A stretch of 11,178 nt of DNA, from assembly GCA_026415985.1 (NCBI GenBank), contig JAOAGA010000059.1:1-11178 (forward strand), in the 5' to 3' direction. The notes beneath the pieces are model-generated. The model made no database searches, was not told where the DNA came from, and worked only from the letters and a program-made list of their open reading frames with translations. This stretch comes from Pseudomonadota bacterium (lineage in GTDB: Bacteria > CALINM01). Positions 4,608-8,729 of this stretch are shown here, in pieces. Positions within the stretch are counted from its first letter, which is position 1. Each line of letters opens with the position of its first letter. Position numbers and translations under genes: made by a program.

Positions 4608-4639
4608 TTTATTTAGAATTATTAAAGGGGGTGGAGAGG

Positions 4640-4834
4640 ATGCATATAAACGAGATAAGAAAGATAGCAAAAAATTTTGGTATATCCTCATCAAAGATGA
4701 AAAAACCTGAACTTATCAGAGCTATACAGAGAAAAGAGGGGAATTTTGACTGTTATGGAACTGCAAAAGAAGGGTTTTGTTCACAATCAAACTGTCTTTG
4801 GTTTGATGACTGTATGACAGAATCAAAAAAATAA
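4640..4834 (+). CDS. Small SAP/Rho-N-like protein with C-terminal four-cysteine motif
   Basis: The 64-residue product begins with a SAP/Rho N-terminal-like helix-extended-helix (about 1-31, HINEIRKIAKNFGISSSKM then KPELIRAIQ). This fold usually binds nucleic acid. The tail carries Cys38, Cys47, Cys52 and Cys58 (C-x8-C-x4-C-x5-C), which could bind zinc or an iron-sulphur cluster; that is inference. I recall similar small proteins with a GNFDC(Y/F)G tail in Geobacter-like bacteria, function unknown. The ATG at 4640 is preferred because the G-rich run at 4626-4634 is then well spaced; an in-frame GTG at 4631 would add three residues but would lie inside that ribosome site. It is the first gene of the operon, 18 bases before the rhodanese. 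Confidence 0.8.
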   Translation: MHINEIRKIAKNFGISSSKMKKPELIRAIQRKEGNFDCYGTAKEGFCSQSNCLWFDDCMTESKK

Positions 4835-4852: not shown

Positions 4853-5164
4853 ATGTCAGAACCTGTTCGTTTGTCAGCAGAGGAAGTTTATAACAAAGTA
4901 AAGGCTGAAAAAGGACTGTTGGTATGTGCCTATAATGACCTCTCCCAGTATGAGCTTGTAAAGATTGAGTTTTCAATACCATTAAGTAGTTTCCTTCAGC
5001 TAAACCCGGAAACATATAAAGATAAGGATATTATCTTCTATTGTGCCTGAACTGCGGAACATACTTCTGCCCGTGTGGCAAAAGAGTTCATGGAAAGAGG
5101 TTACAAAAACGTATATGTTTTAGGTGGTGGATTTGATGGTTGGAAAAAGAGCGGATATAAATGA
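4853..5164 (+). CDS. Rhodanese-like protein with predicted selenocysteine (in-frame TGA at 5048-5050)
   Basis: Read through the TGA at 5048-5050, this is a complete 103-residue single-domain rhodanese. The N-terminal part has LLVCAY (Cys25), and the strand IIFYC ends at Cys64, the position of the usual nucleophile. Then come Ala65, the recoded residue 66, and TAEHTSARVA (67-76). The ending is typical of rhodaneses: ERGYKNVYVLGGG (81-93) and DGW (95-97). Relatives known to me carry Cys-x-Cys in this loop, so the TGA replaces the second cysteine and predicts a Cys-x-Sec pair. Known rhodaneses carry or transfer sulphane sulphur, sometimes selenium; a thiol/selenol redox role here is inference. 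The start has AAGGAG 6 bases upstream. The true stop (5162-5164) overlaps the synthetase ATG as ATGA, supporting an intact gene. Standard gene calling would end it falsely at residue 65. A sequencing error or recent nonsense mutation is the main alternative. Confidence 0.83.
5048..5090 (+). promoter_or_regulatory. Candidate bacterial SECIS element
   Basis: A stem-loop starts at the in-frame TGA itself. TGAACT (5048-5053) pairs perfectly with AGTTCA (5085-5090). After a 10-base 5' bulge, CTT (5064-5066) pairs with AAG (5082-5084). One mismatch follows, then TGCC (5068-5071) pairs with GGCA (5077-5080), closing a five-base loop CGTGT (5072-5076). The loop has G in its second position and lies 21 bases after the TGA. 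Bacterial SECIS elements, as I recall, need a stem-loop close downstream of UGA with a G early in the apical loop. The geometry fits, but no folding energy was computed and a competing hairpin exists. Confidence 0.6.
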
Positions 5165-6357
5165 TAAAGATCGAGAAGATTGATAGCCAGCCGGTCTCCT
5201 CTTTTGATATCGAAATTGTTGAAAGAAAGGGGTTAGGTCATCCCGATACAATATGCGATCTTTTGGCAGAAGAAATATCAAGAGCACTTAGTAAAAAATA
5301 TATTTCATTAACAGGAAGGGTTCTGCATCACAATATTGACAAGATACTTCTGTCGGCAGGAAAAACAGAAAAAACTTTTGGAGGCGGAATATTTTTAAAA
5401 CCAATAAAAATATTCGTCGGAGACAGGGCAACCTTTTTTTCCGGTACTACAAAAATAAATGTATATGAAATAGTTAATTCATCAATAATCAACTGGTTTA
5501 AAAGAGCTATTAAACATTTGGATATTAAAAACATAGAAACAAATATTTTATTAGAAGAAGGCTCAGAAGAACTCACCGGCATCTTTAAAGACAAAAAAGA
5601 TTTTTTGCCTGCAAACGATACATCCGTTGGAATCGGTTACTATCCCTTAACCCCGTTGGAGAGCATGACTTTAGATTTAGAAAACTATCTGAACTCAGAG
5701 ATCTTTAAGAAAAACCATCCCTATACCGGAGAAGATGTAAAGGTTATGGCATTAAGATTCAAAAAAAATACTGATATAACAATAGCAATGCCTTTCATTT
5801 CAAGATACATAAATAACGAAAGACACTACTTTCATCTGAAAGAAGAGGTCTGTAAAGACATTGAAAATTTTGTTGAATCAAAAAGACCTGCCGGGAAAAC
5901 CAAGATTAATTTAAATACCCTTGATAGAAAAGGAGATGGTATCAATGGTATTTATCTGACATTAACGGGGACCTCTGCGGAGGATGCCGACTCCGGAGAG
6001 GTAGGAAGAGGAAACAGGGCAAACGGATTAATCTCTTTTATGAGACCCTTGGGTTCCGAGGCAGTTGCAGGGAAAAATCCTGTCAGTCACATCGGAAAGA
6101 TTTATAACTTTTTTGCCTTTTATCTGGCAGAAAGAATATACAGATGTTTTGATAATATCGATGAAATATATGTATATATTTTAAGCAGGATTGGTAATCC
6201 CGTTAATAAACCTCTCTGCCTGAACATAAAATTATTGCCGAGAAAAAAATTGTCAGAAGATACTTATAACAAGATAACCCTTCTGGCTCAAAAGGAACTT
6301 CAAAGAATAGATGTCTTTTGTAAAAAGATTATATCCGGCAAGATCTGCCTTAAGTAA
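5161..6357 (+). CDS. mat: Archaeal-type S-adenosylmethionine synthetase (methionine adenosyltransferase)
   Basis: This enzyme makes S-adenosylmethionine from methionine and ATP in the cytoplasm. The 398-residue protein matches the archaeal MAT family (COG1812, about 400 residues) rather than bacterial MetK. Conserved blocks are all present: ERKGLGHPDTICD (21-33), HHNIDK (56-61), FGGG (73-76), ANDTSVGIGYYPLTPLE (151-167), TGTSAEDADSGEVGRGNR (269-286) and AVAGKNPVSHIGKIYN (301-316). It looks intact and active. Its ATG overlaps the rhodanese stop by four bases, and GGA about 6 bases upstream is a modest ribosome site, so translation is probably coupled to completion of the rhodanese. It is third in the SAP-rhodanese operon and converges on uvrB with a 10-base gap. 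The archaeal type occurs sporadically in bacteria and suggests old lateral transfer. Whether metK also exists in this genome cannot be seen. Confidence 0.94.
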   Translation: MIKIEKIDSQPVSSFDIEIVERKGLGHPDTICDLLAEEISRALSKKYISLTGRVLHHNIDKILLSAGKTEKTFGGGIFLKPIKIFVGDRATFFSGTTKINVYEIVNSSIINWFKRAIKHLDIKNIETNILLEEGSEELTGIFKDKKDFLPANDTSVGIGYYPLTPLESMTLDLENYLNSEIFKKNHPYTGEDVKVMALRFKKNTDITIAMPFISRYINNERHYFHLKEEVCKDIENFVESKRPAGKTKINLNTLDRKGDGINGIYLTLTGTSAEDADSGEVGRGNRANGLISFMRPLGSEAVAGKNPVSHIGKIYNFFAFYLAERIYRCFDNIDEIYVYILSRIGNPVNKPLCLNIKLLPRKKLSEDTYNKITLLAQKELQRIDVFCKKIISGKICLK

Positions 6358-8504: not shown

Positions 8505-8729
8505 ATGAAAATAACAGTTAAGCTTTTTGCAACCTTGAGAGATTTCGGACCCAAGTATAGTGAGATTGAGATAAAAGAAGGCTCAAAACTATATGATGTA
8601 ATAAAACACTTCAAGATACCGGACGATTTCCCATTAATCAGACTTGTAAACGGTGATTTCGCCAATAACGATTATGAGTTAAAAGATGGCGACATAGTTT
8701 CTTTATTTCCTCCTATTGCGGGTGGCTAA
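8505..8729 (+). CDS. MoaD/ThiS-family ubiquitin-like sulphur carrier protein
   Basis: The 74-residue protein is a beta-grasp sulphur carrier. It starts with KITVKLFATLRDF (2-14), contains VNGDFANNDYELKDGDIVSLF (residues 48-68, a MoaD-like second half), and ends in PPIAGG. The terminal Gly-Gly is the site that an E1-like enzyme (MoeB, ThiF) adenylates and converts to a thiocarboxylate. MoaD donates sulphur in molybdopterin synthesis, ThiS in thiazole synthesis; the FATLR start and PPIAGG end favour the MoaD side. No MoaE or MoeB gene is nearby, so the pathway is uncertain; relatives serving tungsten cofactor, cysteine or other sulphur pathways are possible. It is the first gene of the operon, and its stop directly abuts the kinase start. 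The start is supported by the family N-terminus although no ribosome site is visible. Confidence 0.88.
   Translation: MKITVKLFATLRDFGPKYSEIEIKEGSKLYDVIKHFKIPDDFPLIRLVNGDFANNDYELKDGDIVSLFPPIAGG

Follow-up and report, generated by a model that had tools for sequence, protein, structure and literature searches.

The window, by which we mean the whole stretch of 11,178 nucleotides analysed here, carries on its forward strand (as are all window features below) a gene at 4853..5161 that almost certainly encodes a rhodanese-fold selenoprotein, with the in-frame TGA at 5048-5050 specifying selenocysteine at residue 66 (Sec66). An earlier note on this DNA had proposed a selenoprotein, and the proposal is borne out: sel genes are present, the corresponding column in close homologues holds Cys or TGA, and a SECIS hairpin is present and covaries. 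Because of the sel pathway, the shared TGA column and the SECIS hairpin, we consider sequencing error, a pseudogene and general reassignment of TGA to be very unlikely. Selenoproteins of this type are already known; the gene is a further CxU rhodanese, from a branch that falls below the cut-off of the curated family model.

The interrupted frame and its product

The TGA at 5048-5050 is the sole interruption of the rhodanese frame from 4853 to 5161, and the stop codon, TGA at 5162-5164, is adjoined by a TAA at 5165-5167. Translated with the internal TGA as Sec, the frame gives a predicted protein of 103 residues that ends in FYCAU(66)TAEHTSARVAKEFMERGYKNVYVLGGGFDGWKKSGYK, 37 residues past the TGA. 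Pfam PF00581 matches this read-through product over residues 49-99 (E 3.8e-8; 34.1 bits, above the gathering score of 22.2). With one TGA and a domain match spanning it, the original description of an otherwise intact rhodanese broken by an in-frame TGA, and continued by a normal rhodanese C-terminus in the next 37 codons, is upheld. It had also been expected that ordinary annotation would shorten the gene, and the ORF list does end it at the TGA, after 65 residues.

The 65-residue call made by ordinary annotation and the ORF list would equally suit a pseudogene, or a short protein ended by a true stop. We give this reading very little credence, since the 37 codons past the TGA are conserved as protein, with E69, T71, A73, the GG at 92-93 and Trp97 invariant, and since an RNA hairpin is kept there at synonymous sites.

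AlphaFold2, given a five-sequence alignment with Cys substituted for Sec, returned a confident rhodanese fold (pLDDT 92), whose best match among solved structures is GlpE (1gmx; Z 15.0, 2.5 A over 100 residues). Column conservation identifies the active-site codons Cys64-Ala65-Sec66 (TGT GCC TGA) at 5042..5050. When the sequence is aligned with those of 6mxv and 3nhv, Cys64 falls on the rhodanese nucleophile. Residue 64 thus coincides with the Cys in rhodaneses of known structure, and the TGA residue lies two after the expected nucleophile, as had been claimed. The window protein shares the whole fold and the position of Cys64 with GlpE and the single-domain thiosulfate sulfurtransferases, but it is only 18% identical to GlpE and lacks the Asp-x-Arg motif, and its active-site loop holds Sec and exceeds that of common rhodaneses by two residues. 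Instead of Asp-x-Arg, the branch consisting of the window gene and six relatives has the motif L-V-C-A-Y, with Cys-Ala-Tyr in 7/7 members, all of which carry the TGA. In the window these invariant residues are Cys25-Ala26-Tyr27, encoded at 4925..4933. A further Cys a few residues past Cys-Ala-Tyr is common in the branch and missing from the window protein.

Homologues and the TGA column

A search of 60 related genomes found two close relatives, both in one genome, at 41-44% identity and with one TGA each. A five-sequence profile searched against 386 genomes recovered seven members of the close branch, every one with the TGA, together with further relatives. The resulting alignment comprises 28 sequences, 22 TGA genes and six homologues without TGA. 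The predicted Sec codon at 5048-5050 falls in a column where TGA is shared by the 22 aligned homologous genes, which come from 18 genomes including that of the window. Across this alignment the second Cys/Sec position of Y-[C/U]-x-[U/C] is where the TGA always sits; most sites are C-x-TGA, five genes have TGA-x-TGA, three have Cys-x-Cys, and a few distant rhodaneses have other residues in the TGA column. The Cys-x-Cys relatives (CDC, CTC and CGC) align where the window gene has Cys-x-Sec, as the earlier note had said of Cys-containing relatives, and the check it suggested for column 66 shows a mix of Cys and TGA among close homologues.

An error in which TGT or TGC of a plain Cys-x-Cys rhodanese was read as TGA would take only a one-base change, Cys-x-Cys relatives do exist, and the sequence comes from a single draft assembly that looks metagenomic, with 161 contigs and a completeness of 84%. 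Such an error is nonetheless highly improbable, given a TGA in the same column across 18 genomes, the window's among them, and a hairpin in SECIS register that the window has and the homologues without TGA do not.

SelB was found in 16/17 tested genomes with the TGA form, versus 1/7 genomes that were picked for having no TGA in their listed relatives (Fisher one-sided P ~4e-4, for a set that is small and hand-picked). The TGA-bearing genome in which no SelB was found, G075, has a same-genus counterpart with SelB.

Five homologues (L101, L102, L103, L113 and L116, from genomes G075, G034, G345 and G018) have two in-frame TGAs, giving Y-U-x-U, and the same hairpin; we predict that they are double-Sec rhodaneses. 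At L125 (G018:C60:78189-78935) two adjoining rhodanese genes are separated by about 450 nt; one has a U-S-U site and the other C-D-C, and they may be paralogues of the Sec and Cys type. Searching the window protein against a contig collection returned mainly Brucella-group and other matches to the C-terminal half, with no close orthologues, and these were set aside. A search of viral contigs found no relatives, and a class-wide search around genome G026 covered three genomes.

The SECIS hairpin

A bacterial SECIS hairpin is predicted at 5064..5084, with the stem CUU.UGCC / GGCA.AAG containing one C-A mismatch, and a 5-nt apical loop, CGUGU, at 5072-5076, 21 nt past the TGA. A SECIS-like hairpin occurs at a fixed offset past the TGA in 22/22 TGA genes, always with G as the second of five loop bases, and its core is found in 0/6 of the aligned homologues without TGA. 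For the six stem pairs tested in the 22 TGA genes, 88.6% of cells pair; none of 500 shuffles matched the pairing or the covariation score, and all slid registers scored lower. The outermost pair that is always formed (columns 21-33) joins third codon bases and shows covariation, being CG in 12 genes, UA in 9, GC in 1 and broken in none. RNAalifold independently arrived at the same five-pair stem. When synonymous codons were resampled at random using the third-position GC content of each gene, the hairpin core with the loop G was expected in 3.2 genes as against the 22/22 observed, a contrast whose joint probability is not to be taken literally because the TGA genes are related.

The window hairpin lies within the published limits for bSECIS elements quoted in PMC13188914 (loop CGUGU, 4-bp upper stem, 21 nt, -8.2 kcal/mol with flanking pairs). 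That energy refers to offsets 9-41, and the isolated hairpin reaches only -5.0 to -6.1 kcal/mol. The upper stem is short, with 4 bp, the mismatch and then 3 bp. The minimum free energy fold of the 53 nt past the TGA prefers a different structure and is not significant (z-score -0.92), so the case for the SECIS element rests on the comparison across genes. An Rfam search of the window gave no match.

Selenocysteine machinery and the use of TGA

The earlier note had suggested looking for selA, selB, selC and selD, and the whole set is present in the window's assembly: tRNA-Sec (selC; 76.6 bits, gathering score 47), SelB (373 bits against 242), SelA (378 against 268, its gene cut by a contig end) and SelD (324 against 125). 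ARAGORN likewise reports a tRNA-SeC with anticodon TCA. SelD (G000:C33:19300-20208; L056, TGA at 1531) is itself a second predicted selenoprotein: its active site, SASG-U-AAKMGPGDL, includes an in-frame TGA at the position where selenoprotein SelDs hold Sec, and a hairpin comes after the TGA.

One might suppose that this genome generally reads TGA as an amino acid, as the rhodanese is the only window gene that ends in TGA. Such a reassignment is largely refuted and hardly credible: none of 2,993 other codons is an internal TGA, the TCA-anticodon tRNA scores as tRNA-Sec, RF2 is found above its cut-off, and TGA terminates 2/20 long ORFs elsewhere in the genome. The presence of RF2 and of long ORFs ending in TGA means that the codon also serves as a stop. 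The statement that no other window gene has an internal TGA was accurate, with none in the eight other ORFs (9,003 nt).

Place among known rhodanese selenoproteins

The earlier caution that the family might already be known was well placed. CxU rhodanese-like selenoproteins appear in the tables of reviews (PMC9312934, PMC13188914) as form 3 (NF041203, rhodanese_LYCAU), for which TKB26178.1 is the example in the literature. The window protein resembles this form in its rhodanese fold, its Y-C-x-U loop followed by a helix of the T/S-S-A-R-V-A type, the TGA in the same column and the C-terminal GG(F/W)xxW; it has the C-x-U (or C-x-C) active-site motif of NF041203, and its C-terminal half matches the model with E 2e-19. 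It differs in scoring 69.6 bits, below the cut-off of 115, and in aligning over residues 47-102 only, and a search of the window's own genome with NF041203 likewise left the rhodanese under the cut-off. Typical members above the cut-off have D-V-R after the second strand, where the window protein has Cys25-Ala-Tyr27. Rhodanese selenoproteins of forms 1, 2 and 4 (UxxS, UxxG) and TsoB (UxxxxU) also carry Sec in the active-site region, within other motifs. The TsoB fusion spans 572 positions, and the window protein matches it at only 27.6 bits.

Standard annotation cuts the rhodanese gene short at the TGA and NF041203 misses the branch by score, so that counts of such selenoproteins are probably too low. 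Genes of this branch could be called with the help of the alignment and the hairpin.

Proposed decoding and role

From sequence, structure and genome content, we infer that SelB and tRNA-Sec would insert selenocysteine at UGA codon 66, under the direction of the SECIS hairpin about 21 nt downstream. In the product, Cys64 would occupy the place of the nucleophile, with Sec66 two positions further on, and the two most likely give either a selenenylsulfide that forms reversibly or a per(thio/seleno)sulfide. Cys-x-Sec-type pairs of other selenoproteins form reversible selenenylsulfides, and for this reason our best guess is redox chemistry or the handling of persulfides, not classic thiosulfate:cyanide sulfurtransfer, an assignment to which we give about even chances. 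We found no characterised Cys-x-Sec rhodanese.

More tentatively, the Cys-Ala-Tyr branch may be a separate selenoenzyme, in which Cys25, Cys64 and Sec66 form a candidate thiol/selenol site for reductive chemistry, which could act on peroxide, persulfide or disulfide, instead of sulfur transfer. The Asp of Asp-x-Arg is replaced in the branch by the invariant Cys25, and all seven members found use Sec, none of them Cys. The extra Cys25 gives a prediction on the mechanism of Cys-x-Sec rhodaneses that can be put to the test.

Gene neighbourhood

An archaeal-type S-adenosylmethionine synthetase gene (PF01941; 5161..6357) is the probable operon partner of the rhodanese. The overlap of the rhodanese stop with the next start as ATGA, remarked on before, is as described, the TGA at 5162-5164 sharing the ATG of the synthetase gene. 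As an addition to the selenoprotein reading, selenium might gate translation of the SAM synthetase through termination at 5048: the ATGA overlap spans 5161-5164, and without Sec the premature stop would fall 110 nt upstream. We think such gating improbable, since gene overlap is common in bacterial operons and the SAM synthetase occurs with no rhodanese in front of it in the two same-family genomes. The archaeal-type synthetase is found here in a genome with bacterial RF2 and SelA.

Upstream, 18 nt before the rhodanese, a gene for a 67-residue protein with a Rho_N/SAP-like domain and a Cys-rich tail (4631..4834) possibly belongs to the same operon. In eight homologue neighbourhoods, inspected by eye from ORF listings and the first 50 residues, we noticed no shared operon. 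Since the branch showed no common set of neighbouring genes, any reaction proposed for it is a guess. Elsewhere in the window, 8505-8729 encodes a MoaD/ThiS-like sulfur carrier protein with a GG end, directly before a histidine kinase gene with a GTG start.
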